From a virus, in the IMG/VR virus record IMGVR_UViG_3300044627_004527, positions 62,001-126,000 of that record: 64,000 nt of DNA; one strand, given 5' to 3'. Each line of letters begins with the position of its first letter. The stretch's first letter is position 1. This document shows, one piece after another, positions 16,435 through 29,061 of the stretch. The translations under genes were made by a program, and so were the position numbers. The notes under the pieces are model-generated. The model was not told the origin of the DNA. It saw nothing but the letters and a program-made list of their open reading frames with translations, and ran no database searches.

Positions 16435-17010
16435 TTAATTGAGCGCGGCGAGTGCATCGGCGAACGTGTTGATCTCGGTGAAGTCGTTGTTCACGATTCC
16501 CTCGATCTTGTTCTTGGCGATGTACAGCCGAGCGATGTAGCCAGTCGTCCCGAGGATACCCGGGCCAGCGGAGCGAGCACAGTCCCACTTGAGCAAGATC
16601 AGGTCTCCCGCCTCGCTGGTGAGAGTCGCCTCAGTGCCGAAGATGGAGGTACCCTTGTCCACCAGCCAGCCAGCAGCACGCGCATCTTCCAGGATCTTGT
16701 CGAGCCGGATGATGTTGTCGTGAGCGGCCAGGTTGCGGCGGTACTGATCGCGGACATACTGTGGCCAGACCATGTAGGCGGTGTACTTGTCGCGAAGCGC
16801 CTGAATGTGGTAGGCGTAGTCCTTGGCGCGCTTCTGCTTGTACTCAAAGGACCGCTTGTGTGCCTCGGTGTAGCAGGTGTCTCGCCAATCGAGCGCATCG
16901 AGCAGCGCCGTTGCGCAGCAGGTCTCGCGATGCTCGATGTTCAGGTCTGGCTGATCCTGGATGATGCGGATGAGATTCATCGCAGAGGTGAGTCCGATCT
17001 GATGCTTCAT
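16435..17010 (-). CDS. Hypothetical protein, 191 aa
   Basis: Not recognised. It is helical, with a lysine/arginine/tyrosine-rich middle (SFEYKQKRAKDYAYHIQALRDKYTAY). AGGAG lies six bases before the ATG, and the diverged fifth copy of the two-hairpin leader element (17025-17092) lies directly upstream. Confidence 0.78.
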   Translation of the reverse strand: MKHQIGLTSAMNLIRIIQDQPDLNIEHRETCCATALLDALDWRDTCYTEAHKRSFEYKQKRAKDYAYHIQALRDKYTAYMVWPQYVRDQYRRNLAAHDNIIRLDKILEDARAAGWLVDKGTSIFGTEATLTSEAGDLILLKWDCARSAGPGILGTTGYIARLYIAKNKIEGIVNNDFTEINTFADALAALN

Positions 17011-17024
17011 GAAAGACTCCTGTT

Positions 17025-17092
17025 GGCGTATCGTGATTGATACGGCGGAAGCTACGAGGACAGCTCATAGCTCCCAGCGCATCACGATCTAC
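17025..17092 (-). promoter_or_regulatory. Two-hairpin leader element, copy E (diverged)
   Basis: On the minus strand, GGAGCTATGAG pairs with CTCGTAGCTTCC, followed by a small GTATC-aatcac-GATAC hairpin, then AGGAG and the ATG of 16435-17010. The architecture matches copies A-D, but the flanks are less conserved. Confidence 0.6.
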
Positions 17093-17718
17093 TACTTTTT
17101 GTCATAGCGGTTGGGATCAAGCCACTGGCCGTCCTGCCACTTCTCTTTGTCATCGACGAGATAGCCTTTGGGAGTGCCAGCCTCAGGGGCGGAGATAGCG
17201 ACGAGGATCGTGTGGCCATTCTCATCCACAAAGCTGTGTCTCTCAGTGTGATCGACTTGCGCGATCACTTCGCTCAGGCTCTTCTTGACGCCGAGGATCT
17301 CATCGAGGTCCCAGTGGTAGGGCGTGTACATGTCGCTGTTGTCGATGTCTCGATGCCCGAGGTCGCGGAAGTCTTCGGCGAAGTCCTTGAAGTCCTGCAC
17401 CTCTGCCACAGGCATCGCGTGCAGATCAGACCAGCCGAAGTAGCTGACGTCGTCGCCAGCGGTGCTGTTATCCATCTCAAAATCAGAGAGCTTCTCACCG
17501 TGCTTCTCGCTGTTGTACTTCTCGTTGGTCGAGCAGATGATCCCACGGGGCCAGCACTCAGCAGAACCAGTGCCTGAACAGCAGTGAACGCTGAGCTTCT
17601 CGTTGAGCGCAAGGACCTCGAAGATGCGATCCACATAGATGGGCTTGCTCGTGAAGTGACATGTGATGTCATTGAGGCGGTAGGTGACTTTGAGATGCTT
17701 GTCGAGGGAGATGGACAT
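17092..17718 (-). CDS. Hypothetical protein, 208 aa
   Basis: Not recognised. It contains HCCSGTGSAECWPRG (about residues 45-59), an acidic middle with DFKDFAEDFRDLGHRDIDNSD, and a C-terminal beta region. AAGGAA precedes the ATG. The stop codon borders the copy E leader element. Confidence 0.78.
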   Translation of the reverse strand: MSISLDKHLKVTYRLNDITCHFTSKPIYVDRIFEVLALNEKLSVHCCSGTGSAECWPRGIICSTNEKYNSEKHGEKLSDFEMDNSTAGDDVSYFGWSDLHAMPVAEVQDFKDFAEDFRDLGHRDIDNSDMYTPYHWDLDEILGVKKSLSEVIAQVDHTERHSFVDENGHTILVAISAPEAGTPKGYLVDDKEKWQDGQWLDPNRYDKK

Positions 17719-17779
17719 GATGCGTTCCTTGATGCTTGGGTTTGATTCATGATGGCGGCGTGATGCCGCGCACCATTTT

Positions 17780-17808
17780 GTGATATGCGATCACTAAATT
17801 TATCGCAA
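17780..17808 (-). promoter_or_regulatory. Minus-strand promoter (TTGCGA, 17, TATCAC)
   Basis: A family member with spacer core TTTAGTGAT, followed by AAAATGGTGC in the early transcribed region. TGCGAT/ATCGCA form an inverted repeat around the spacer. It drives 17092-17718. Confidence 0.62.
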
Positions 17809-17832
17809 CGATATTTTAGAGATCGCTGTTGT

Positions 17833-18264
17833 TCAGTAGAGGTCGGTCATATCGACACCGATAGTGCCGTTGCCGGTGAACTTGGTGCCGATCTTGTGGG
17901 AGATGGAGAACTTGGCGGCGCTGGTCTTGAGCATGTCTGCTTCCAAAGCGCAGATCCATGAGCGAAGGATCTCATCCCAGTTCTCGTCGTGGAGGTCGTA
18001 GTCGCTGGTGGCGGTGCTACCAATCTTCTCTTCCCACAGCGGCCTGATGCGACTGTGTCGCCCCTCATTGGAGAGAGATGGGGCCATCATGCCGATCACC
18101 CACATGCCGACTTGGTAGCATAGCTCTTTGTGATTCTTGACTGCGCTCTCTGGCGGCTCTTCGTCGCCAGGATCTTCATCAGTGACAAAGAACAGGGCGT
18201 GCTCTGTCGTCTTGAGGTTCACGAAGTCGAGGGCGAGGACCACTGGGGTCATAATTGTTTTCAT
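17833..18264 (-). CDS. Hypothetical protein, 143 aa
   Basis: Not recognised. The N-terminal strand is hydrophobic (PVVLALDFVNL), followed by an acidic region (DEDPGDEEPPE). GAGGAG precedes the ATG. Confidence 0.77.
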   Translation of the reverse strand: MKTIMTPVVLALDFVNLKTTEHALFFVTDEDPGDEEPPESAVKNHKELCYQVGMWVIGMMAPSLSNEGRHSRIRPLWEEKIGSTATSDYDLHDENWDEILRSWICALEADMLKTSAAKFSISHKIGTKFTGNGTIGVDMTDLY

Positions 18265-18281
18265 GAGATTCTCCTCGGTTG

Positions 18282-18503
18282 TTAGTGCCAGCCAGCAGCG
18301 GCCAACAGATCATCGAGCTTGTTGAGATCGTCACCAGCCTGAGCGACCATGCGCTTGAGCTGATTTACCTCGGCGGGAGTACGGTCCTGGAAGTTGCGCT
18401 GGTCTGACATCACATCGTTACCAAAGAAGCCTTTGGTTGTGCGCTCGATCTTGAGGCAGCATCCGCCGCGCGTCTTGGTCACAGTGAACTTGCATCCGGT
18501 CAT
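18282..18503 (-). CDS. Hypothetical protein, 73 aa
   Basis: Not recognised. Basic beta-like N-terminus (MTGCKFTVTKTRGGCCLKIER), helical C-terminus. AGGAG precedes the ATG. Confidence 0.74.
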   Translation of the reverse strand: MTGCKFTVTKTRGGCCLKIERTTKGFFGNDVMSDQRNFQDRTPAEVNQLKRMVAQAGDDLNKLDDLLAAAGWH

Positions 18504-18530
18504 GGGGAACTCCTGTCAGGTTGGTTTGTT

Positions 18531-18767
18531 TTAGCGGTGTTTAGCTCTCAGAACTGCATCGCTCTCTGAGCAGCGGCGCGAGAGCTTGGCGATCGCCTTC
18601 TCTTCTGTGTCAGCAATCGCCCACGCAACAGCGTGAGGTGGGGCGTATGCTTGCCAATAGGCGATCCAAAGCTCTTCGCCGTCTTGTTGCGCCCACGCGC
18701 TCAGCAGAGAGAGGTTGATACCGTCGCGGCTGCCCTGTGGGTACTTCTCAGTGATTCTGTTCACCAT
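18531..18767 (-). CDS. Hypothetical protein, paralogue of 18792-19046
   Basis: A 78-aa protein aligned throughout with its upstream neighbour. Shared are ITEKYPQGS/YTEKFPQGS, NLSLLSAWAQQDGEELWIAYW/NLSHMSALAKRDGKDLWFACW, and an A(W)xIxxTExxAxxxLxxxC block. The function is unknown. GAGAGG is upstream. Confidence 0.76.
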   Translation of the reverse strand: MVNRITEKYPQGSRDGINLSLLSAWAQQDGEELWIAYWQAYAPPHAVAWAIADTEEKAIAKLSRRCSESDAVLRAKHR

Positions 18768-18791
18768 TTCAGAGCCCCTCTCAGATATTGG

Positions 18792-19046
18792 TTAGAACAG
18801 GTTCTGTTTGTGAGCTAGCTGAATTGCTTCATGCCGATCTCGGCACTTGAGTGCCAGATTTTGAAGAGCCTCGGCTTCTGTGTTGCCAAGAGACCACGCC
18901 GCAATCCGGCCAGTTTCGTCTGTCTTCCAACAGGCGAACCAGAGATCTTTGCCGTCTCTCTTGGCGAGGGCACTCATATGCGAGAGGTTGACGTCCTCAG
19001 GTTGTAAGCTGCCTTGCGGAAACTTCTCAGTGTAGCGCCTGATCAT
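18792..19046 (-). CDS. Hypothetical protein, paralogue of 18531-18767
   Basis: An 84-aa tandem duplicate of the following gene (see there for shared blocks). Start and the stop of 19043-19330 overlap as ATGA. Confidence 0.76.
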   Translation of the reverse strand: MIRRYTEKFPQGSLQPEDVNLSHMSALAKRDGKDLWFACWKTDETGRIAAWSLGNTEAEALQNLALKCRDRHEAIQLAHKQNLF

Positions 19047-19330
19047 GATTGGATGATTGCTCCAGCGAGGCTATCGCGCAGAACGATAGCGAGATCCATC
19101 GCATCCTTGAGCACTCGCTCAGGCTGGTCATGGTACTCATATGACCACTCGTCTTGCAGCACAGATCCGATGAAGCCAGTCCTGATCGTGTACGGGCCAT
19201 TGCCACGAGAATTGTACGCGATGATCTGAGCTGAGAACGTATAGCCATGAATCACGACATCACTGTACCAAGACAGAGGGATGGTGGTGTTGTCTGGCCG
19301 ATCATGCTTGTGCCACTTGTTTTCTGACAT
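19043..19330 (-). CDS. Hypothetical protein, 95 aa
   Basis: Not recognised. A beta-rich middle (VVIHGYTFSAQIIAYNSRGNGPYTIRTGF) with a helical C-terminus suggests a small sandwich domain. The leader AGGAGGATCTC-ATG is identical to that of the gene at 1-27. Confidence 0.76.
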   Translation of the reverse strand: MSENKWHKHDRPDNTTIPLSWYSDVVIHGYTFSAQIIAYNSRGNGPYTIRTGFIGSVLQDEWSYEYHDQPERVLKDAMDLAIVLRDSLAGAIIQS

Positions 19331-19359
19331 GAGATCCTCCTATGAGCGTTATATGCTAG

Positions 19360-19890
19360 CTACCGTCGATTGCCTTTGTTATCGAGGGTGCATTCATCCA
19401 TCAAGTGCCAGCCACCACCAAGGATAGCTGGCTGCATCACGCTGATCTGGGCGTAGTCGTAAACCCACGGACTGGGCTGACGATGCCATCCCTTGTGCCA
19501 TCCCACGACAAGAGACAGCGCCGATCCATCTTCTAGATCAATCGTCGCCGATGTCCACGCTGAGTCTTCGCCAGCCCATTCGGCCAGAGGACCTGAAGGC
19601 TTCAGATTCACGGCCTCAAGAGCAGCGAGCAAGCGTGGTGTGCGATCCATCTTGGAGATTGCGTCTCCTTTCGGATGGATGATGGGCGTGAGGGCGACTG
19701 CGAGTAACCACGAGGTGGAGCCCCGACCCAGAGGCAAAGCCTTGGCCAGAACTGCGCGCCCATGCGCGAGTCGATCTTCATCGAGTTTGGCCAGCCGATT
19801 CCGATCAGATACACTGGCGCCAAATCTCTGAGCACGAGCATAGATCTCGTGATAAGAAGTGTGTTGAGCACTTCTATCCTCGATGAGCAT
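19360..19890 (-). CDS. Hypothetical protein, 176 aa
   Basis: Not recognised. It contains TSWLLAVALTPIIHPKGDAISK and a Trp-rich C-terminal region (VVGWHKGWHRQPSPWVYDYAQ). The ATG at 19890 has AGGAG; in-frame extension upstream would only translate the leader element. Confidence 0.76.
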   Translation of the reverse strand: MLIEDRSAQHTSYHEIYARAQRFGASVSDRNRLAKLDEDRLAHGRAVLAKALPLGRGSTSWLLAVALTPIIHPKGDAISKMDRTPRLLAALEAVNLKPSGPLAEWAGEDSAWTSATIDLEDGSALSLVVGWHKGWHRQPSPWVYDYAQISVMQPAILGGGWHLMDECTLDNKGNRR

Positions 19891-19906
19891 GATATACTCC
19901 TGTTGA

Positions 19907-19971
19907 CGTATCATCAGCGATACGAGTGGAGCTGCTACCATGCGTAGCAGCTCCACTTGCCTGACGATCAG
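19907..19971 (-). promoter_or_regulatory. Two-hairpin leader element, copy A
   Basis: It begins at the stop codon of 19968-20402 with TGATCGTCAGGCAAG. A perfect 14-bp hairpin (GTGGAGCTGCTAC/GTAGCAGCTCCAC) follows, then CTC, then the GTATC-gctgat-GATAC hairpin, and AGGAG before the ATG of 19360-19890. There is no U tract after either stem, so it is not a standard terminator. Confidence 0.75.
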
Positions 19972-20402
19972 TATGCGAACTCGTAGCCTTGCTGTTCAAG
20001 CCGACCTTTTGAGTAAAAGTCTTTGCTCCACTTGAGATAATCCTTGATGTTATCCCAGTAGGTATCCTGCAAAGCGCGATCAACGATGCCGATCATCTTC
20101 TCTTCGTGATCAGAGAGACCATGACGACTTAGCAGCGTATGGCCGAGATCAACAAAGTCAGATACCTTGACCTTCTCGACGATGATCTCCTTGCGAGTGA
20201 GGGTGTTGACGATCCGCAGATGAGGACCGTCGAAGTGAAAGCGCATCTCACCTGTGCGCTCATCACCCAGCACATAGCCGATCGGCCATGTGAAGATCGC
20301 CTCTGAGATAGACAGGCCATGCTTGGTATGATCTGGGAGCTGCCGAGCAATATCGAACAGCTTCCAGCGCATACCGAGGCAGAAGTGGGGCATGTAGTAC
20401 AT
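19968..20402 (-). CDS. Hypothetical protein, 144 aa
   Basis: Not recognised. It has a beta-rich middle (GEMRFHFDGPHLRIVNTLTRKEIIVEKV) and a helical C-terminus. The ATG overlaps the stop of 20402-20602 by one base. Confidence 0.76.
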   Translation of the reverse strand: MYYMPHFCLGMRWKLFDIARQLPDHTKHGLSISEAIFTWPIGYVLGDERTGEMRFHFDGPHLRIVNTLTRKEIIVEKVKVSDFVDLGHTLLSRHGLSDHEEKMIGIVDRALQDTYWDNIKDYLKWSKDFYSKGRLEQQGYEFAY

Positions 20403-20602
20403 CAGTCCCTCCCCGAACAGACAGCCACAGCCGCAGCGATCTGGGCCTCGACCTGATCCCAGTCAGACTCAGGGTTGCAGTTGATGCAGCCGAGCGTGAA
20501 GGTCACGCCGTCGATGTTGGCCGCCACGAGGGAGAGTGACTCGCCACAGCAGGGGCAGGAAGGCTTCTCGCTCTTGAAGACATGCTGATGCTTGTTCATC
20601 AT
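20402..20602 (-). CDS. Small zinc-ribbon-like protein, about 66 aa
   Basis: CPCC (about residues 16-19) and CINC (39-42) are spaced as in a four-cysteine zinc ribbon, with beta strands between. It may bind DNA, RNA or a protein partner. Two consecutive ATGs follow GAGG; the second (20599) has better spacing. ATGATGA overlaps the stop of the upstream gene. Confidence 0.75.
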   Translation of the reverse strand: MMNKHQHVFKSEKPSCPCCGESLSLVAANIDGVTFTLGCINCNPESDWDQVEAQIAAAVAVCSGRD

Positions 20603-20943
20603 GCCACCTCGCTATTGATCTTGGAGAACTTGACGCGCAGCTCGGAGGGATCAACGCCCTCATACCACTCGTGCAGGAGGATCTTGCGGACAGCCTCAGA
20701 GGCCATGCCAAAGAGCTGCTCAGAACGCTTATAAAGCTCACCGCCATAGCGGAGCTTGAGCAGCATAGAGTTGTAGGCGGTGTTGCTGCGGTCAAACTGC
20801 ATATCGCAGCAGACAGCGCACGCCCACTCCTCGAAGGTGAGGCCCTGATCGTTGGCGTCGCCACGCTCAGCGAGACGATAGATGCCGTCGCGCGAAGCGA
20901 TGTCAGTGTTGAGACCAGACACAGTGAACTGCTTGAGGGGCAT
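20599..20943 (-). CDS. Hypothetical protein, 114 aa
   Basis: Not recognised. Helical, with an EEWACAVCCDMQFDR segment. AGGAGTCCATC precedes the ATG, downstream of leader element copy B. Confidence 0.76.
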   Translation of the reverse strand: MPLKQFTVSGLNTDIASRDGIYRLAERGDANDQGLTFEEWACAVCCDMQFDRSNTAYNSMLLKLRYGGELYKRSEQLFGMASEAVRKILLHEWYEGVDPSELRVKFSKINSEVA

Positions 20944-20958
20944 GATGGACTCCTGTTA

Positions 20959-21026
20959 GCGTATCATCAGCGATACGAGCGACACCACCACAGCTAGAGT
21001 GATGATGCCGCTTGCCTGACGATCAG
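20959..21026 (-). promoter_or_regulatory. Two-hairpin leader element, copy B
   Basis: TGATCGTCAGGCAAG begins at the stop codon of 21023-21370. A 13-bp stem GCGGCATCATCAC/GTGGTGGTGTCGC follows, with several G-U pairs possible only in minus-strand RNA, then the GTATC/GATAC hairpin and AGGAG. Confidence 0.75.
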
Positions 21027-21370
21027 TTGATCTGAAGAATCATCGTCTTGGCTTCGATCCAGATAGAGCTGTCGTCCTCTTGCGTCAGCTCATACTCGTC
21101 TGACTCACCATCATAGCCGAGGATGTAACCCTCATAAAAATCAGATCCGTTGTAGCCTCGGGCATAGTGACCGAGCACAGTCTCAGCAGATGCCAGACGA
21201 GCAGCGCGGGCCTCCGCTTGTTCGGCCCATGCCAGCTCTCGCCGAAGCATGGTCGTGCGATTGCGAGCGAAGCACAGAGCGAGAGCTGAGCCTGGCTCGC
21301 ATGTCTTGACACAGTGGCACTGATAGTCGGAGCAGTTCTCAAGCAGAGGCATGACGATAGAGAGGGGCAT
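21023..21370 (-). CDS. Hypothetical protein, 115 aa
   Basis: Not recognised. The N-terminal third has several cysteines (CSDYQCHCVKTCEPGSALALC), followed by a helical Ala/Arg-rich middle and an acidic end. I chose the ATG at 21370 because GGAG lies six bases upstream; an ATG at 21382 is also possible. Confidence 0.74.
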   Translation of the reverse strand: MPLSIVMPLLENCSDYQCHCVKTCEPGSALALCFARNRTTMLRRELAWAEQAEARAARLASAETVLGHYARGYNGSDFYEGYILGYDGESDEYELTQEDDSSIWIEAKTMILQIN

Positions 21371-21422
21371 CGGATTCTCCATTTGTTGTTTTGCCTTGCG
21401 GCATGGGTTGCGGCACCATTTT

Positions 21423-21451
21423 TTTATAGGGCATCACTAATTTTGTTGCAA
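21423..21451 (-). promoter_or_regulatory. Minus-strand promoter (TTGCAA, 17, TATAAA)
   Basis: A strong family member with spacer core ATTAGTGAT and AAAATGGTGC after the -10. It lies directly after the stop of 21459-21803, whose last codons (GCGATCGC-TAA) belong to the conserved sequence. Confidence 0.72.
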
Positions 21452-21458
21452 CGATATT

Positions 21459-21803
21459 TTAGCGATCGCTCTTGCGAGAGCGACGGCCTCTGTTCTCGCG
21501 GCAGGTGTAGTGACTGCGCACCGCCCACATCTTCTCTTGCAGAACGGACATGGTGCGCTCCAGCTCCAAGAGCTGCTTGGCATAGCTTCTGTCGTTGAGC
21601 GAGCGAGCTCGGATGTCAGCGGTCTTGCGAGCCACCGCATCAAGCTTTCTCGCAAGCTTGCGGGTCTGGATGATGACAGCCATACGGCGGCGCGCATCAT
21701 CGTGTCCCTTCGAGTAGGGGAGTGTGCCAGAGAACTGGGTCCGGCCCATGCGGTCGTAGATGCGATCGCGAGACATGTCTTGAGAGAGCTTGGTCAGATT
21801 CAT
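21459..21803 (-). CDS. Hypothetical basic helical protein, 114 aa
   Basis: Not recognised. It is rich in Arg/Lys and predicted helical throughout (RKLARKLDAVARKTADIRARSL), with a basic C-terminus RRSRKSDR; it could bind nucleic acid. The ATG at 21803 follows GGAAGA; one at 21818 is an alternative. Confidence 0.74.
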   Translation of the reverse strand: MNLTKLSQDMSRDRIYDRMGRTQFSGTLPYSKGHDDARRRMAVIIQTRKLARKLDAVARKTADIRARSLNDRSYAKQLLELERTMSVLQEKMWAVRSHYTCRENRGRRSRKSDR

Positions 21804-21825
21804 GATGACGTCTTCCATGTAGAGT

Positions 21826-21889
21826 GGAATGGTTCCGCGCAGCGAGCGCTGCACCATTCCTTCATGCTGCATCATTAAATTTGATGCAA
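21826..21889 (-). promoter_or_regulatory. Promoter with 5' hairpin
   Basis: -35 TTGCAT (21884-21889) and a weak -10 CATGAA (21861-21866) are 17 bases apart. The following sequence, GGAATGGT...ACCATTCC (21826-21860) with an inner GCAGCG/CGCTGC pairing, would form a hairpin at the 5' end of the message. Confidence 0.5.
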
Positions 21890-21896
21890 CGATATT

Positions 21897-23003
21897 TTAG
21901 CGATCGCTCTTTGAGGCGTTGAGATCCGGCGCTGGCAGACACATGAGCTTCGCTGCCATCGCTGTATCAGCAGCTTTGGTGGTGATGCTCTTGGTCTGAT
22001 AGCTTGCGATGACATGATCCATGCGTAGCTGGGTCGCGATGTCTGAGCTGCTGCCGTCATACTCCAAGAGCTCAAACTCCAAGCCGCAGATCGATGACAC
22101 GCTCGGGCCTTTGTACATGGAGCAAAGAGAGGTCATCTGCTGAGAGCCATCACCGCCAGCCAGGATAGTGACCATGCTGTGCTCAATGATGGTGTGCTGG
22201 TCAAGCATCCATCCATTGACCGGCGAGATCGGCAGCGGACCTCTACCTCTTGCATGAGAGATTGCGTTACAGATCTGCTCAACAAGCGCTGAACCTGTGA
22301 GCACAGTGTAGTCATGAGTGTTGTCGATCATGCTCTCGACCGATTCGCTGTGCTCCATGAAGAACTGGAGGACGATCTTGGCGTTGGTGTTCTGCTCATC
22401 TGTCGGCTTATCCGAGATTGATACCTTCTCGACCTGAGCCAGACTGAGCATCGCTGGACTGGTGCTTCTGACGAAGCGACGCTTGAGAGGCGCCTTGTGG
22501 TCAAACTGAAAGAAGCCGACAGCGCCGTAGCACAGCCCCTCTCGATACTCTGCTGACAAGCAGTTGATCCGACGAGACTGATCTTCTGTGAGGCGAGCGA
22601 GCGCATGGACTAGTGTGTTCTCGCGCTCAGAGATGGGCTTGTCACCATAGAGGATCTCGTCTGCGATGTCCTCGACCGCAAAAGGCTTCTTGTAGGGCTT
22701 ACAGAAGGCGACGACCTTGTCGAGCAGATCCTGAACTTGAGCCGGATCATTCATGTCGCCGATGAAAGGAGGTAGTTGCTCGACAGCAGTTGTCTTGCCA
22801 TAGAGCGGCCCCCAAGCGCGATGCTTCTTGTCGAGGACCATGTTCGTGAGCATCGCCACAACTTCGGCTACGACCTCTTTGTCCTTGTGCTCCTCCATGA
22901 GGAACATGAACTTTGAGATCGAGAGATGATCTTCGATGCGATACTCGCGGCCCCAGCGGCGGATGTACTCTTCTGCGATGTTTGGTGCATTGAACGTGAC
23001 CAT
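21897..23003 (-). CDS. Hypothetical protein, 368 aa, paralogue of 24579-25715
   Basis: Not recognised. The N-terminal 130 residues clearly match the 24579-25715 product: both have (Y/L)RIEDH/YLIEDH, a KKHRAWG motif and LPxFIGD. The second halves diverge. No membrane segment or known catalytic motif. AAGGAA precedes the ATG. Confidence 0.8.
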   Translation of the reverse strand: MVTFNAPNIAEEYIRRWGREYRIEDHLSISKFMFLMEEHKDKEVVAEVVAMLTNMVLDKKHRAWGPLYGKTTAVEQLPPFIGDMNDPAQVQDLLDKVVAFCKPYKKPFAVEDIADEILYGDKPISERENTLVHALARLTEDQSRRINCLSAEYREGLCYGAVGFFQFDHKAPLKRRFVRSTSPAMLSLAQVEKVSISDKPTDEQNTNAKIVLQFFMEHSESVESMIDNTHDYTVLTGSALVEQICNAISHARGRGPLPISPVNGWMLDQHTIIEHSMVTILAGGDGSQQMTSLCSMYKGPSVSSICGLEFELLEYDGSSSDIATQLRMDHVIASYQTKSITTKAADTAMAAKLMCLPAPDLNASKSDR

Positions 23004-23031
23004 GATGCTTCCTTATGAGGCTGTTGACAGA

Positions 23032-23724
23032 TCAGATGATCTTCTTGAGTTCGGAGATGAGCTTGCGACCGCTGCGAGCGCCGCGCGTATGCGTCCAGTA
23101 GTTTCTGTTGCACTCGTGGATCTTCTCAGCGATGCTCACGCATTGCGTCGGGATGCCAGGATAGGGGTCCTCCGAGTTGTAGCGCCAGTCGTGAGCATTG
23201 CCGATCAGATACTGGGCCAATTGGTAGGCTTCAGCTCCAATGGTGGTCTTTCTGATGGTGTTGTAGCAGAGAGCATAACGCTCTCGCCAAGCTGTCTCAA
23301 CCTCGACAGGCCAGAACAACCGCATGGCGCCGATGAGACCGTCTTCTGAGAAGCGGTCAGGGATCACCCATCTGATGTCAGGTGTCTCATAGTCAATCTG
23401 TTTCACTTTATAATAAGAGCGCTTATCCCAACGGATACCTTGCGGGGCAAGGATACCCGAGACGATCTTGAAGATCTCTGGCGCTTGATCAGCATCTGTC
23501 TTGTCAATTCCCATCGACTTGTTATCGAAGTAGCGCCAAGAGTCGATCCTCAGAAGGGAAGACCCGCGAGTGTCTGTCACACATGCGCGAGCGACGACCT
23601 TCCAGTCGACTCTCTTGCTGAGATCCTGGTGTGGTCTGGGGTTGCGGAGCATGTCTTCCCGGATAAGCCGCGCCTGTTCAATGGCGGTGTTCATGCTCGC
23701 GATTTTGAGTTTGTTGGGCTCCAT
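23032..23724 (-). CDS. Hypothetical protein, 230 aa
   Basis: Not recognised. It is a soluble basic protein ending in THTRGARSGRKLISELKKII. AAGGAA precedes the ATG at 23724. The upstream gap (23725-23880) contains the hairpin and GAAAAAC repeat described separately. Confidence 0.78.
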   Translation of the reverse strand: MEPNKLKIASMNTAIEQARLIREDMLRNPRPHQDLSKRVDWKVVARACVTDTRGSSLLRIDSWRYFDNKSMGIDKTDADQAPEIFKIVSGILAPQGIRWDKRSYYKVKQIDYETPDIRWVIPDRFSEDGLIGAMRLFWPVEVETAWRERYALCYNTIRKTTIGAEAYQLAQYLIGNAHDWRYNSEDPYPGIPTQCVSIAEKIHECNRNYWTHTRGARSGRKLISELKKII

Positions 23725-23754
23725 AAGAGTTCCTTGAGGCTTTTGGGTTGATGC

Positions 23755-23840
23755 ACTAAAATTTCTGGACCAGTAAGACTTGACTGGACCAGATCGACAC
23801 GTTCCTGAAAAACGCGCGACACAGCACCACAAAACGCACA
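23755..23840 (-). repeat. Gap with TCTGG(T/A)CCAG hairpin and GAAAAAC repeat
   Basis: On the minus strand, a TTTTTC run is preceded by GTGTCGCGCG; this matches the repeats near 8070 and 15267. Further along, TCTGGTCCAGT and ACTGGTCCAGA can pair with one mismatch. It probably ends the transcript of 23881-24501; a promoter is not clear. Confidence 0.4.
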
Positions 23841-23880
23841 CGAAAAATGCGCATCTTGTGATGCCGAGTCGGCCTCCAGA

Positions 23881-24501
23881 TCAGAAGTAGCAGGGGCCAT
23901 CGCCGACGCAGACACGACCAACACCATCGATCCACCAGTTGCGCTGCAACCACTGGATCGGCGACAGATCACCCATGTCCGGCTTGACGGGTACAAAGGG
24001 CTTGTACTCGGCGCCCCACGGCCCGAAGATCGCCTTCTTGTGGCTGTTGTAGGCGTTCTCGCGATGCGGCGAGATGAGGTTATAGAGCGGCTCCTCAGTG
24101 ATGAGGCAGACGAGGTACATCACCTCCTGCCACACGTCCGCAACATCCTCGGGGATCTCCTCCTTGATCGCAGCCACCAGATCCTCAAACTGGCTGCCCT
24201 TGATGCCATAGGCCTTGCATCGCTGCTGGTCCATGCTGTCATAGAGGTGCCACTTGCTGGCGTGGATGCTCGGAGCGTTGAGCACCACCATCGCATCGTA
24301 GCTGACATAGCTGCTCACATACAGCTCGGTGCCGCCGTTTCGACGGTAGAGCTGGAGATCGATGTAGCGAGGACCGATCTGCTTGCCGAATCGGATGTCG
24401 GTGTTGTGGCCAGTCTCCTCGTTGCGCGAGGAGTTGGTGCTGTGGGTGTAGTAGGGAGTCGGGCGGGCAATGGGAGCGACGGTGTTGTTATCGGCGGACA
24501 T
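23881..24501 (-). CDS. Hypothetical protein, 206 aa
   Basis: Not recognised. The N-terminus is Ser/Thr/Asn-rich and probably disordered. It is followed by a folded domain with RYIDLQLYRRNGGTELYVSSYVSYDAMVVL and ends in an aromatic GPCYF. AGGAG precedes the ATG at 24501, downstream of leader element copy C. Confidence 0.78.
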   Translation of the reverse strand: MSADNNTVAPIARPTPYYTHSTNSSRNEETGHNTDIRFGKQIGPRYIDLQLYRRNGGTELYVSSYVSYDAMVVLNAPSIHASKWHLYDSMDQQRCKAYGIKGSQFEDLVAAIKEEIPEDVADVWQEVMYLVCLITEEPLYNLISPHRENAYNSHKKAIFGPWGAEYKPFVPVKPDMGDLSPIQWLQRNWWIDGVGRVCVGDGPCYF

Positions 24502-24517
24502 TTGAGACTCCTGTGAA

Positions 24518-24582
24518 CGCATCATCAGCGATGCGAGTGATACCACCACATGAGTGGATGATACCACTTGCCTGACGATCAG
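24518..24582 (-). promoter_or_regulatory. Two-hairpin leader element, copy C
   Basis: TGATCGTCAGGCAAG starts at the stop of 24579-25715. The stem AGTGGTATCATC/GGTGGTATCACT has different pairs from copies A and B at the same positions. The second hairpin is GCATC-gctgat-GATGC instead of GTATC/GATAC, a compensated change. Confidence 0.75.
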
Positions 24583-25715
24583 ACAGGATAACGCCTGAGC
24601 GTGAGACGCGGGACGATTTGACGAAGACAGACAGTCGCGCCTGACTCCAAGAGCGTGTCAAAATAGTCAAAAGGCTCTTGAGTTTGCACAGAGGGCCAGA
24701 CAGTGAACTCGGCATGTGTGTCGACGCCGGACATCACGACGTTGTTTGCGCCGTCCTCGGCAGCCCACAGCCGAACCCTGGCCATGACCTTCGCATAAGA
24801 GATCGGGTCATCGTTACCCTCTGCTACATAGTAGCGAGAAGAGATCCTGACACGGTCCTCCTTGTGACTGAAGGTCAGCTTCATGCTCTTTGAGCGGTAG
24901 GTCTTCGACACAGCACCATCAGTGATCGGGGAGATGCGCACCATCACGTCATAAGGATCGCGATGGGGAAAGAACTTCTCAGCCAGAGCGGCGAGTCGAT
25001 GGTCGATCACAGCACTCTTGCGACTGTCGACGCGACCATCACGAAACTCCATGTCACACAAACAGTCCATATCATGGACAGCCTGACTGACCGAGTCACC
25101 TTCATCAACCAGCGGATCTTGGTTGATCTCAGCGACGTTGACGTCCAGGATGGCCCTGTGGACATTCTGCTTTGGCATGAGGGTCCACGGCATATAGTCT
25201 CTGACGTGAGGCACGAGGATGCCTGCTCCACAGTAGCGCAGCGGTAGATGGTGCCCTGCCGAGAAGTAGTTGATCCTCTGCGCCTGCTCGTCATCGAAGT
25301 CGAGGATGATAGATCTGCGCAGCTTCGGCAGTGAGGGATGATCAAAGAAGCGATGCCCGAGCTTTGAAGCTGTCATCAGGAAGCTCTCGACATCAGCAGC
25401 ACTGTAAGCATCGCCGATGAACTGAGGCAGCTCGATCAGGTTTTCAGTGGGCGCAAATAGCGATCCCCACGCTCGGTGCTTCTTCTCGTTGTAGATGTTG
25501 GTGATAATGTCAAGAGCATCTCTGTGCTCCGCGTGCTCCAGATGAAACAGCCACCAGCACAGCTCGAAGTGGTCCTCGATCAAGTAGTCCCGACCGAACA
25601 TGTCAAGGAACATGTTGATAATCGGCTGAGCGTCGTCTGACTTTGTGTCATAGATCTTGGCCAACAGCTTGATCTGATTGATGTTTTCTACTGACATTTC
25701 ATTGAGATTGATCAT
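24579..25715 (-). CDS. Hypothetical protein, 378 aa, paralogue of 21897-23003
   Basis: Not recognised. See 21897-23003 for the shared N-terminal blocks, here YLIEDH, KKHRAWGSLF and ELPQFIGD. The second half is unrelated by eye. AAGGAG precedes the ATG at 25715. Confidence 0.8.
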   Translation of the reverse strand: MINLNEMSVENINQIKLLAKIYDTKSDDAQPIINMFLDMFGRDYLIEDHFELCWWLFHLEHAEHRDALDIITNIYNEKKHRAWGSLFAPTENLIELPQFIGDAYSAADVESFLMTASKLGHRFFDHPSLPKLRRSIILDFDDEQAQRINYFSAGHHLPLRYCGAGILVPHVRDYMPWTLMPKQNVHRAILDVNVAEINQDPLVDEGDSVSQAVHDMDCLCDMEFRDGRVDSRKSAVIDHRLAALAEKFFPHRDPYDVMVRISPITDGAVSKTYRSKSMKLTFSHKEDRVRISSRYYVAEGNDDPISYAKVMARVRLWAAEDGANNVVMSGVDTHAEFTVWPSVQTQEPFDYFDTLLESGATVCLRQIVPRLTLRRYPV

Positions 25716-25746
25716 GATAGACTCCTTGAGTTGAGAGTTGAGATAC

Positions 25747-25810
25747 CGCATCATCAGCGATGCGAGCGACACCACGACTGCCTGTCATGATGCCGCTTGC
25801 CTGACGATTA
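25747..25810 (-). promoter_or_regulatory. Two-hairpin leader element, copy D
   Basis: The upstream stop here is TAA, followed by TCGTCAGGCAAG. The 14-base stem AGCGGCATCATGAC/GTCGTGGTGTCGCT is fully paired when G-U is allowed. The second hairpin is GCATC/GATGC. The gene served is 24579-25715. Confidence 0.75.
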
Positions 25811-26488
25811 TTTCACTGTATCCTTGTAGGCCACGAGGACCTTCTTTGTGAACCTGTCGTTGTATTGCTGGTAGGTCTCCTCATAGTCATGAGACGAGAA
25901 GTTGTTACGAGCAGAAGCGAGGAACCCCTGCACTGCTTTCTGAATCCCGATCTCCAGATCCACCCTCGCTGACATCGCCATCAGCAGCTTGTTAACCCAG
26001 GGCCACCAGCGTTGACTGAGAGTGGCCGCTCTCAAGGCTTGCTTGCAAGCGAGCATCTCCTTGCTACGAGGCTCAGTCTTGATCGCAAGCCTGTACTGTG
26101 CGATCAGGTCAAACACTTGGGGCGCTGCCAGAGCAATGTCCGCATTATACTGAACAAGCGCCTCCTCGATGATCTCCTCGCACCAACGATGCGACATCTT
26201 CTCAAGGTCCATATCACGATACGACAGGATCATCAGGTGCCACTGACCGATCTCCCATCGCCACGCGACGTGACGAGCGGCATCGACCGTAGGATACGAG
26301 TCAAAAGCGCTGATCCACTGTACGCCTGCCTTCAAGAGGCTGTCGATGTCAACATTGATCCACCAGTCACGCAGCGCTGCGTCGCGCTCATCGCCTACTG
26401 GCATCTGCTTGAGGATGCGCAGCGGTTCTCTCCAGTTGTTGCTGATGAAGGCCTCTTCTCTCGCCGAACGATACTCACCGTAGTTCAT
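25808..26488 (-). CDS. Hypothetical protein, 226 aa, paralogue of 26520-27260
   Basis: Not recognised. It shares NYGEYRSAREEA, NWxxPxxxxxxMPxGxERDAALRDWW and a similar helical C-terminal half with its upstream neighbour; a tandem duplication. Mostly helical, soluble. AGGAG precedes the ATG. Confidence 0.8.
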   Translation of the reverse strand: MNYGEYRSAREEAFISNNWREPLRILKQMPVGDERDAALRDWWINVDIDSLLKAGVQWISAFDSYPTVDAARHVAWRWEIGQWHLMILSYRDMDLEKMSHRWCEEIIEEALVQYNADIALAAPQVFDLIAQYRLAIKTEPRSKEMLACKQALRAATLSQRWWPWVNKLLMAMSARVDLEIGIQKAVQGFLASARNNFSSHDYEETYQQYNDRFTKKVLVAYKDTVK

Positions 26489-26519: not shown

Positions 26520-27260
26520 TTAGCGCAGAGTCTGCTTGTATGCCTGAAGGATGATCGTCATGTACTCACTGCCGACATCCTCAATTGTGTCCCAGTATTC
26601 TTGCTCGCCCTTGCTGCGGCGCTCCGCATTGTAGGCGTTCTGATAGTGGAGCGCGACCCCTTCCAGATAGTAGTCGTACTCCAGAAGGCAGACGAGCATC
26701 GCATAAGCGATCGACTCCAGAAGGGAGTGCTGCTGGCGCTCGTCGATGTCGTCGGGAGAGATCCTGAGGTAGACATTCGACAACAGATGGATGTCCCAGC
26801 GCCTCTCCAGGCTGTCCTTGGGCGACTGGATAGACTCTCTGTACTGGTCCAGGAGCTGCCACAGGATGATGTCCTGCTTGATCTCAGCCTCGAAGCTCTC
26901 AAGCAAGCGCTCAACGAGGAGCCGACCAAACTTGTGAGCGAGCTTCGGCAGCTCGACATCGGAGCCGCGAAACACGCGCTCCTCATGGTAGCTGATCTCA
27001 CAACAGTCGTCTGTCATGGTGAGGTGAGAGATCCTGCGAGCAGCTCCGAAACGATAGCCTCCGCTCCTCGTCCCGTTCTTCTCGATCCTCAGATCGCAGG
27101 GCGAGAGATAAGCGCTGGTCTCGGTCAACCACCAGTCTCGCAACGCGGCGTCTCTCTCCTCACCCCTTGGCATCTTGATAGCCAACCAGAACGCACGATC
27201 CCAGTTGCCGTTCGTCTTGGCTTCTTCCCTCGCCGAACGATACTCACCATAGTTGCTCAT
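26520..27260 (-). CDS. Hypothetical protein, 246 aa, paralogue of 25808-26488
   Basis: Not recognised; the second copy of the duplication described at 25808-26488. The ATG at 27260 follows TTGAGGTCTATC. It is the first gene downstream of the palindrome-rich gap at 27261-27549. Confidence 0.8.
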   Translation of the reverse strand: MSNYGEYRSAREEAKTNGNWDRAFWLAIKMPRGEERDAALRDWWLTETSAYLSPCDLRIEKNGTRSGGYRFGAARRISHLTMTDDCCEISYHEERVFRGSDVELPKLAHKFGRLLVERLLESFEAEIKQDIILWQLLDQYRESIQSPKDSLERRWDIHLLSNVYLRISPDDIDERQQHSLLESIAYAMLVCLLEYDYYLEGVALHYQNAYNAERRSKGEQEYWDTIEDVGSEYMTIILQAYKQTLR

Positions 27261-27289
27261 GATAGACCTCAATTGGGGGCAAAGCTCAC

Positions 27290-27310
27290 ACGCGGATCTT
27301 ATATCCGCGT
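27290..27310. repeat. Small inverted repeat upstream of 26520-27260
   Basis: ACGCGGAT and ATCCGCGT form an 8-bp stem with loop CTTAT. It lies 30 bases before the start codon; an operator or leader hairpin is possible. Confidence 0.4.
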
Positions 27311-27411
27311 ATAGGCAGCCTCTGTTTTTGGATTGGATCGGGTCTCTCAAACCGAACCTACTTTCATCTCACACTACAACGCACGATGCGTTATGCTAGG
27401 ATGCTATACAG

Positions 27412-27444
27412 ATCAAGCACATAGTCACTTGACCACTGCTTGAT
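27412..27444. repeat. Inverted repeat ATCAAGCA/TGCTTGAT
   Basis: Perfect 8-bp arms separated by 17 bases, in the gap before the 26520-27260 gene. It may be a protein-binding site. The gap has TTGATC and TATAGC boxes on the minus strand, but no clearly spaced promoter. Confidence 0.4.
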
Positions 27445-27482
27445 ATGTATGACACAGCACAACGATAAAGCAACCCACACTA

Positions 27483-27522
27483 GTTATACAGCCGTATAGG
27501 AGATCCTATACGGCTGTATAAC
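27483..27522. repeat. 40-bp perfect palindrome
   Basis: The arms 27483-27500 and 27505-27522 are perfect 18-bp complements around AGAT. It lies 28 bases after the stop codon of 27550-29061. There is no T run on either side, so it may be an operator, a replication or recombination site, or an RNA processing hairpin. Confidence 0.8.
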
Positions 27523-27549
27523 GTACTACCGAACACTTTTTGTCAGGAC

Positions 27550-29061
27550 TCAGTCATCGAACTCCACACCATCGATCGCATCGCCCTTGACAGGATAGTC
27601 AAGGTGGCCCTGCTTGGCATAGACCTTGTGCTCCTTCAACACCTCGATCAACGTGTCGGTGAGCCCACCCTCGGCCACACAGGCCTCGAACGTCGAGTAG
27701 TTCTCGACGTCCTCGAACAGGTCGAGGAGGCCGTGGTGGCGATGATGCCATGCCCTCTCAAGACAGCGCTCAAGCATCGACAGGACACCAGCGAAGCCGC
27801 CCCCCTCGGAGAGGCGCTGGATAGCCTGCCGGGCGTTCTCATAGAGCAGCTCACGCATCTGCTCGATCGGACCATCGTTCATCCAGATGATGGCGCTCTT
27901 GGCGATCAGCATGTGGTCAACATGGTGACCGACCTTGTCGCTGTTGTGGGTGAGCGCCATGTCACAGAAGGCGGCCAGCACATTGACAGGAGGACAGTAG
28001 TTCTCAAGAGCCATCATCTCTTGAGGCGTACCCTGCAAGCGCTTGCGGTCCATCCTGCGAACCACCGCATCCTGGACAGCCTCGACCTTGTTGAGGCGAC
28101 TGGTAGCGAGGTTCTTGGCCGATGAAGCATGGTCCTTCATCTTACCAACGCCCGCCTTGGCAAGCTTCGCCTCATAGATGTCCTTGTCGATCGAGGTCGC
28201 ATTGACGAACTCGACATTGACGAACCGAGCAGCCGCGAGCCGTTCCAGAACCTTCATGCCGAAGCGGAAGAACTGCTTGCTCCCATGCAGAGCAACGATG
28301 CACTGCTCGCCGAAGACTCCACACTGGAAGTATGCAGCCTTGTTCTGAGCGATGGTGTTGAGCAGCATCCCAGCCATGCTATCGCCGATGAGGATCTCAT
28401 TCTGAGCATAGCTTGTGGCATTGCTCGATGACCTCAGGTCGATGCTCTTACGAGCCTTGCGGAGCGCGCTCGCGACCTTCTCACGAACCTTGTCAGGCTG
28501 GTCGAACCAGCACAAGAAGCCGTCAGCCCTGAGCGATGGCACAGAAGGATCGTCACTCGGCACAGAGTGCTTCTCGATGCTCAGGAGCGAAGCCTTGACA
28601 CCAGTGGTCACGAGCGCATCGCGCCCGGTCTTATTCCCGGCCCCATCGACGATACGAGTCGCCTCACGACCAGCAACATCACGCAGCGAAGCGCTGCGAC
28701 CATTGAGGTCAGAGAGAGCAGAGGCGCTCTTGTCAACGCCACCCGCCACACGCTCCCTCACGACATCACCATGAACGTCAGTCGTCAACACCCAAGCGCC
28801 ACGATCGGCGCCCTCGCCCACGACAGGCACTCGCTCCAGTGACGAGACACCACGAGACGAACCATGACGCATGGGCACCACCTCCGGCACCACATGACGA
28901 ACCTCGACGATCTCCTTGTCCTCGGTCATGACAGTCTTGAACAAGCCCTCGACCTCAACACTGGGGAGAGGAGTAGTGGGGATAGAGTTGACATGGAGGA
29001 GAGAGGGAGACACAGCGACAGGAGCAACGATACGACGACCAGCACGCTTGACAGTAGACAT
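27550..29061 (-). CDS. Hypothetical protein, 503 aa
   Basis: Not recognised. The N-terminal 180 residues are low in aromatics and Ser/Val-rich, probably extended. The middle (200-300) has a hydrophobic core with ILIGDSMAGMLLNTIAQNKAAYFQCGVFGEQCIVALHGSKQF. The C-terminal third is helical with HHVDHMLIAKSAIIWM and an RAWHHRHHGLLDLFEDV block. GGAG lies about ten bases before the ATG. It is the largest gene of the left arm and the first after the 1.6 kb gene-free region. Confidence 0.8.
   Translation of the reverse strand: MSTVKRAGRRIVAPVAVSPSLLHVNSIPTTPLPSVEVEGLFKTVMTEDKEIVEVRHVVPEVVPMRHGSSRGVSSLERVPVVGEGADRGAWVLTTDVHGDVVRERVAGGVDKSASALSDLNGRSASLRDVAGREATRIVDGAGNKTGRDALVTTGVKASLLSIEKHSVPSDDPSVPSLRADGFLCWFDQPDKVREKVASALRKARKSIDLRSSSNATSYAQNEILIGDSMAGMLLNTIAQNKAAYFQCGVFGEQCIVALHGSKQFFRFGMKVLERLAAARFVNVEFVNATSIDKDIYEAKLAKAGVGKMKDHASSAKNLATSRLNKVEAVQDAVVRRMDRKRLQGTPQEMMALENYCPPVNVLAAFCDMALTHNSDKVGHHVDHMLIAKSAIIWMNDGPIEQMRELLYENARQAIQRLSEGGGFAGVLSMLERCLERAWHHRHHGLLDLFEDVENYSTFEACVAEGGLTDTLIEVLKEHKVYAKQGHLDYPVKGDAIDGVEFDD

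Follow-up and report, generated by a model that had tools for sequence, protein, structure and literature searches.

The 64,000-nucleotide window analysed here, bases 62001-126000 of the 176,695-base virus record IMGVR_UViG_3300044627_004527, contains five copies of an RNA element of about 62-64 nt, which are all encoded on the minus (coding) strand and each of which fills the space from the stop codon of one gene to the ribosome-binding site of the gene that follows. The element very probably represents a selected RNA structure, as three helices with compensatory changes are found in it. A genuine function in control or processing at the RNA level is probable, and we tentatively favour a role as an intercistronic signal for mRNA processing or stability inside the early operons. 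Positions below are those of the window unless marked as genome positions. The virus is a tailed bacteriophage, its genome encoding terminase, portal, major head protein, thymidylate synthase, ribonucleotide reductase and a DnaE-like polymerase, and a 127-bp direct terminal repeat at the ends of the record fits a complete assembly.

Five copies of one element

The copies, here called A1 to A5, are located on the minus strand at 17027-17088 (A1), 19907-19968 (A2), 20960-21023 (A3), 24518-24579 (A4) and 25747-25808 (A5), within a few nucleotides of the coordinates given in a preliminary description of this DNA. A covariance model built from the five copies scored them at 75, 83.5, 83, 79 and 84 bits, respectively. 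When the whole genome was searched with this model, as the preliminary description had proposed, all other matches were at noise level, save those of 15-26 bits on the plus strand, which are the reverse complements of A1, A2 and A5. The family pattern ATCGTNANGCN{26,50}CGYATCNNTNANGATRCG matched the window exactly five times, at A1-A5, and found nothing in 100 dinucleotide-preserving shuffles. A1-A5 are the only copies in the genome. The segment TCGTCAGGCAAG is exact in four of the five copies and diverged in A1 (AUCGUGAU...AUCACGAUACG), as previously described; the pairwise identity of A2-A5 is 63-86%, and A1, the most diverged copy, differs from the others by about 50%.

Covariation in three helices

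The structural alignment of the five copies, all from one genome, has 67 columns. Hairpin 1 (columns 16-29 pairing with columns 37-50) has 96% of its cells paired, and eight of its 14 pairs are changed on both sides: its sequence is largely rewritten among the copies, while pairing and length are kept. It reaches 14 pairs and is a perfect 14-bp Watson-Crick stem in A2, a stem of 10 + 4 pairs with a one-base bulge in A4, and one of 13 pairs plus a C.C mismatch in A1. The stem position reported to be A-U, C-G or U-A in different copies is real (columns 21-45). The small hairpin (columns 52-56 with columns 63-67) is 100% paired and has one compensatory pair; the reported switch between GTATC/GATAC and GCATC/GATGC is likewise found, at columns 53-66. 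Its arms are fixed in A1 although four of the six loop bases change there.

A third helix is formed by columns 5-12 and columns 58-65, with all cells paired, two compensatory pairs and a one-sided change between G-U and G-C. Its 5' strand is held by the conserved segment ATCGTCAG (= TCGTCAGG), which is more than a flank, as it pairs with the loop and the 3' arm of the small hairpin. At columns 8-12/58-62 the partner strand lies in the loop of the small hairpin and this pairing is compatible with the small hairpin as a pseudoknot, whereas columns 5-7 and columns 54-56 compete for one GAU (columns 63-65). The bases common to both competing helices (columns 5-7, 54-56 and 63-65) are invariant, while the unshared pairs vary.

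Over the pseudoknot set of 24 pairs, 97.5% of the cells are paired and 11 pairs are changed on both sides, compared with 5.0 +/- 1.3 in shuffles (0 of 500); in controls with slid partners the pairing collapses. The cells over the helices comprise 116 Watson-Crick pairs, 16 G-U pairs in the coding-strand RNA and no A-C, which shows that the selected form is RNA and not DNA and agrees with the earlier remark on G-U pairs in minus-strand RNA. In simulations without constraint, started from a paired root and run along the copies' own tree with at most 51% pairwise difference, the observed overall pairing was reached in 0 of 5000 runs; since this null assumes equal rates across columns, the simulation is relied on for hairpin 1 alone. 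When the A1 changes were permuted over positions and bases, the lower helix taken by itself gave p ~0.013. Template switching between the arms of a palindrome could yield some hairpin 1 changes in a single event, most clearly the perfect A2 stem, but would not account for 16 G-U against zero A-C cells. The selection for RNA structure proposed in the preliminary description is thus supported.

The strand-specific G-U pairs and the absence of matching sites led us to reject readings of the element as a promoter, a terminator or a DNA operator: no promoter- or terminator-like sites are present within the five elements, and no intrinsic terminator (a GC-rich hairpin followed by a U run) is found at them, CGYAUC coming after hairpin 1.

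Two predicted, competing folds

The predicted minimum without pseudoknots is, for all five isolated elements, one long interrupted hairpin of about 24 bp (-30 to -38 kcal/mol). It is predicted to consist of an 8-bp lower stem, a 4-nt AUCG/AUCA bulge on the 3' side, 2-3 bp, a 1x1 mismatch and a 14-bp upper stem. The second predicted fold combines hairpin 1 with the small hairpin beside the ribosome-binding site, the loop of which is able to pair back as a pseudoknot. This two-hairpin form is predicted 4-6 kcal/mol above the minimum before any pseudoknot bonus, and therefore either fold may be populated. The element had first been described as two hairpins; this form is indeed predicted, but the description was incomplete, as the third helix was missed and the predicted minimum is one long hairpin with a bulge. 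Neither of the predicted folds involves AGGAG in pairing.

Placement at gene junctions

Pairing in the lower stem begins with the final base of the stop codon upstream in A2 (TGA, gene 19968-20402), A3 (TGA, gene 21023-21382), A4 (TGA, gene 24579-25715) and A5 (TAA, gene 25808-26488), while in A1 the tandem stop TAG TAG of the gene 17092-17718 ends immediately 5' of the lower stem. The upstream stop codon had been suspected to form part of the element, and in A2-A5 it does. The genes downstream are 16435-17010 (A1; AGGAG at 17017-17021, ATG at 17010), 19360-19890 (A2; ATG at 19890), 20599-20943 (A3; ATG at 20943), 23881-24501 (A4; ATG at 24501) and 24579-25715 (A5; ATG at 25715). In A1-A4 the ATG comes 16 nt after the end of the element (5 nt, AGGAG, 6 nt), and in A5 this distance is 31 nt. 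The statement that the small hairpin stands before AGGAG needs a correction: the distance is 5 nt in the first four copies, and the leader of A5 is 15 nt longer. According to the coordinates of open reading frames, the genes at the other same-strand junctions between 16.1 and 26.5 kb overlap or are 17-31 nt apart, or else the gap between them contains a promoter-like repeat or, in one case, is a structured stretch of 156 nt. With the hairpin subtracted, the effective gap at an element junction is 19 nt, comparable to the ordinary junctions of 17-31 nt, and hence an element junction looks like an ordinary one with a structured RNA inserted.

These registers could reflect a translation-coupling switch, in which an upstream ribosome terminating at the abutting stop codon would melt the lower stem, the small hairpin would form and initiation at the downstream gene would change; in the long-folded state the stop codon and the next ATG would be an effective 19 nt apart, a distance inside the ordinary range. 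Such a switch would fit the position of the stop codon, which opens the pairing with its last base in four of the five copies (with the tandem stop just before the first paired base in A1), the spacing of exactly 16 nt to the ATG in four copies and the GAU shared by the two folds, which are mutually exclusive there. A terminating ribosome covers about 11 nt downstream, and 11 nt separate the stop codon from hairpin 1. However, with AGGAG free in both folds it is hard to see how initiation would be affected; the registers may be fixed simply through inheritance with the repeated unit, and A5 has its longer leader. We regard this switch as a secondary possibility. It is unlikely that the copies form a five-copy intercistronic device in which a ribosome at the built-in stop flips the long hairpin or pseudoknot into the two-hairpin form, each gene's translation deciding the processing or translation of the next.

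The proteins encoded beside the elements are orphans with no Pfam or PHROG match. The genes adjoining different copies are not paralogous to one another; therefore the element was not simply carried along with duplicated genes, and duplication together with flanking genes was rejected. Three paralogous pairs of orphans do occur in the early arm (25808-26488/26520-27350, 21897-23003/24579-25715 and 18531-18767/18792-19046), with 30-37% identity over the aligned part.

The repeated unit, which spans the region from the stop codon to the ribosome-binding site, with 63-86% identity among A2-A5 and unrelated orphan genes beside different copies, could also be seen as a DNA cassette that serves recombination as a site for the insertion or exchange of small early genes, with the hairpin of secondary importance. 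The model for such a linker is provided by PeSL, the small repeated intergenic promoter/stem-loop cassettes of T4-type phages (cited in PMC4503421). PeSL and the present element are alike in being small repeated intergenic units with a stem-loop among variable small genes, but the present element has neither promoter nor terminator, the promoter-like repeat of this phage being a separate sequence; no early promoter was found inside the repeated units. Moreover, the strand-specific G-U pairs and compensatory changes require selection on RNA, and the identity is poor for homologous recombination, A1 having diverged by about 50%. We consider a linker function improbable.

Transcription context

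The promoter-like repeat CTAAAATATCGTTGCANNAAANTTAGTGATNNNNTATAAA has a sigma-70 layout (TTGCAN, 17 nt, TATAAA) and is present in about 10 copies, all on the minus strand, at 466, 5349, 12439, 15701, 17780, 21423 and 21861 of the window and at genome positions 30126, 51209 and 58649. Several of these repeats overlap an upstream stop codon, and several are followed at once by a strong hairpin, placed at the 5' end of the would-be transcript. The A elements appear to be internal to transcription units: A1 and A3 would come after the first gene past a promoter-like repeat, and A3 and A2 would belong to one unit.

The elements can also be compared with the put RNAs of phage HK022, which are about 70 nt long, contain two stem-loops, occur once per early transcript as putL and putR near the early promoters, and act on terminators at least 10 kb away (PMC9378689). 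A cis-acting antiterminator of this type would, as nascent RNA, modify RNA polymerase to read through downstream terminators; put does so by way of the zinc-binding domain of the beta' subunit. In its two-hairpin form the present element would resemble put in size and in its two-stem layout (PMC9378689), but this form competes with a long fold that is predicted to be more stable. Unlike put, the element recurs at five gene junctions, where its registers relative to stop and start are fixed; five copies, apparently two of them (A3 and A2) in one unit, tied to a stop codon and a ribosome-binding site, are not expected for put, and no Rfam family matches. Antitermination of this kind is thus very improbable.

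A candidate signal for mRNA processing or stability

Intercistronic processing or stabilisation, the role that we tentatively favour, would start from the long bulged hairpin, which has the size and shape of an RNase III-type substrate; the enzyme would come from the host. If the RNA were cut where the two hairpins meet, or close to that point, the upstream message would end in hairpin 1, a 3' cap directly behind its stop codon, and the downstream message would begin with the small hairpin, a 5' cap directly ahead of its ribosome-binding site; adjacent genes would then be expressed and decay independently. As such a cut yields both a 3' cap and a 5' hairpin, the need for both folds would be a requirement of precursor and product. 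With a ribosome terminating at the abutting stop, the 5' side of the lower stem would be masked and the balance would shift to the two-hairpin fold, so that upstream translation could tune the event.

This role is consistent with the three helices with compensatory changes, the strand-specific G-U pairs, the stem of about 24 bp predicted for every isolated copy, with its asymmetric bulge on the 3' side, the placement from stop codon to ribosome-binding site in all five, the invariance of the bases shared by the competing helices, the absence of promoter- or terminator-like sites and the apparent position of A1 and A3 behind the first gene past a promoter-like repeat. Hairpin 1 is kept in pairing and length but hardly in sequence, the pattern to be expected if double-stranded RNA is what is recognised.

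In T7-like phages, RNase III processing sites are intergenic, being placed between a stop codon and the gene that follows, and are long interrupted hairpins with an asymmetric internal loop. The elements share with them the several intergenic copies in an operonic region and the placement from stop to next gene, and an intergenic interrupted hairpin of at least about 20 bp with an internal loop is likewise predicted here (about 24 bp plus a 4-nt bulge on the 3' side). Unlike the T7-type sites, they have a conserved small hairpin that competes with the long stem, and the likeness drawn here is one of shape and placement.

Several points weigh against cleavage of the elements by an RNase III-type enzyme, which is suggested by folding predictions and by this analogy. 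By analogy with T7 the cut might be expected at the bulge; the 4-nt bulge falls within the 5' arm of the small hairpin, and a cut there would destroy this hairpin. Among the phage's own proteins there is no match to an RNase III domain, hence a host enzyme must be assumed. In a longer sequence context, a slipped lower stem is predicted to be preferred for A1. Finally, the sequence of the base region is more conserved than a nuclease reading only structure needs.

The conserved base (AUCGUCAGGCA...CGYAUCGCUGAUGAURCG) could instead be read by an RNA-binding protein of the phage or the host, with hairpin 1 presenting it, the element being a translational or processing operator of a five-gene regulon. 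Four copies hardly differ in the sequence of the base, in contrast to the free variation of hairpin 1; only 5 nt lie between the end of the unit and AGGAG in four copies, which is near enough to hinder 30S binding, and the elements are confined to five genes genome-wide. Nevertheless, several letters of the base region in A1 are changed by compensation, so that base identity is not strictly needed, and the competing pairings alone account for part of the sequence conservation. We regard an operator of this kind as a further secondary possibility.

Comparison with ESAS leaders

Repeated leader or junction elements are already known in phages, for example the extended start-associated sequences (ESAS), the function of which is unproven. 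In Cluster K mycobacteriophages, ESAS are conserved 17-bp imperfect repeats beside the 13-bp SAS, GGGATAGGAGCCC (PMC3203893, PMC12699233). Like the present elements, they are repeated inverted repeats upstream of the ribosome-binding site in a subset of genes of the non-structural arm, and the stop codon can lie inside the repeat (PMC3203893, PMC12699233). In contrast to ESAS, hairpin 1 keeps its pairing and not its sequence, and a third, competing helix is present. The SAS GGGATAGGAGCCC is absent from the start sites of the element-bearing genes, where a sequence of the MAACAGGAGTNNNNC type was read directly. The ESAS leaders are the closest published pattern, and the five elements do not qualify as members.

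The distinctive features of the present element are the covariation in three helices, the competing fold and the fixed register of the stop codon, all within one genome. They allow a sharp test of the way in which phages adjust the expression of individual genes within a long operon, and the element would add a new RNA family to the databases, with a model ready for finding relatives.

Search for relatives and known families

The search against Rfam 15 gave two tRNAs as the only matches passing the gathering threshold. Even at E<=10 no family overlapped the five elements, except for one lncRNA match (E=6.5) that grazes A3 far below the gathering score; the earlier impression that the element belongs to no named family is in line with this. 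Exact and relaxed DNA patterns gave 37, then 0, then 9 matches in IMG/VR, none with the full fold, the 37 being by our estimate within the range expected by chance for a 15-base pattern. Nine matches were found in GTDB genomes, all lacking hairpin 1. No relative was found by DNA-level comparison of the element region with 50,697 phage records. The extension of the covariance-model search to relatives, also proposed in the preliminary description, did not add a copy: among 30 related or co-retrieved viral records there was a single match of 17.6 bits (E=0.03), which was treated as noise. A loose structural descriptor, with about 60 matches in the genome against 23-38 in Markov sequences, was too permissive and was given no weight.

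Scans with terminase, PhoH, DNA polymerase and neighbouring proteins revealed distant kin only; the contigs with a syntenic core that were examined mostly showed 24-39% protein identity and contained no homologues of the early arm. The element is thus known from one genome so far, with IMG/VR and GTDB searched. One distant relative (G001; C1 21605, 21774 and 26356) has a repeated leader of its own, GGAACAATTT...AACGGCATTGTATAAGTACAAGGAGAG, directly before ATGs. It was rejected as the same element, being promoter-plus-RBS-like (RBS, ribosome-binding site) and unrelated.

Other features of the genome

In the gene of the DnaE-like DNA polymerase (genome 168448-172728), HNH-endonuclease families match approximately residues 958-1084 and the polymerase match is split in two, which suggests an intein within the gene. 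The ribonucleotide reductase (genome 4535-7744) is also matched in two stretches. Two distant parts of the genome (52918-53228 and 149963-150272) form an inverted repeat of 317 bp with 76% identity. A minus-strand gap of about 290 nt (27259-27552 in the window) contains a perfect hairpin of about 18 bp (GTTATACAGCCGTATAGG...) and a second long interrupted hairpin, and is possibly a non-coding RNA or an origin.

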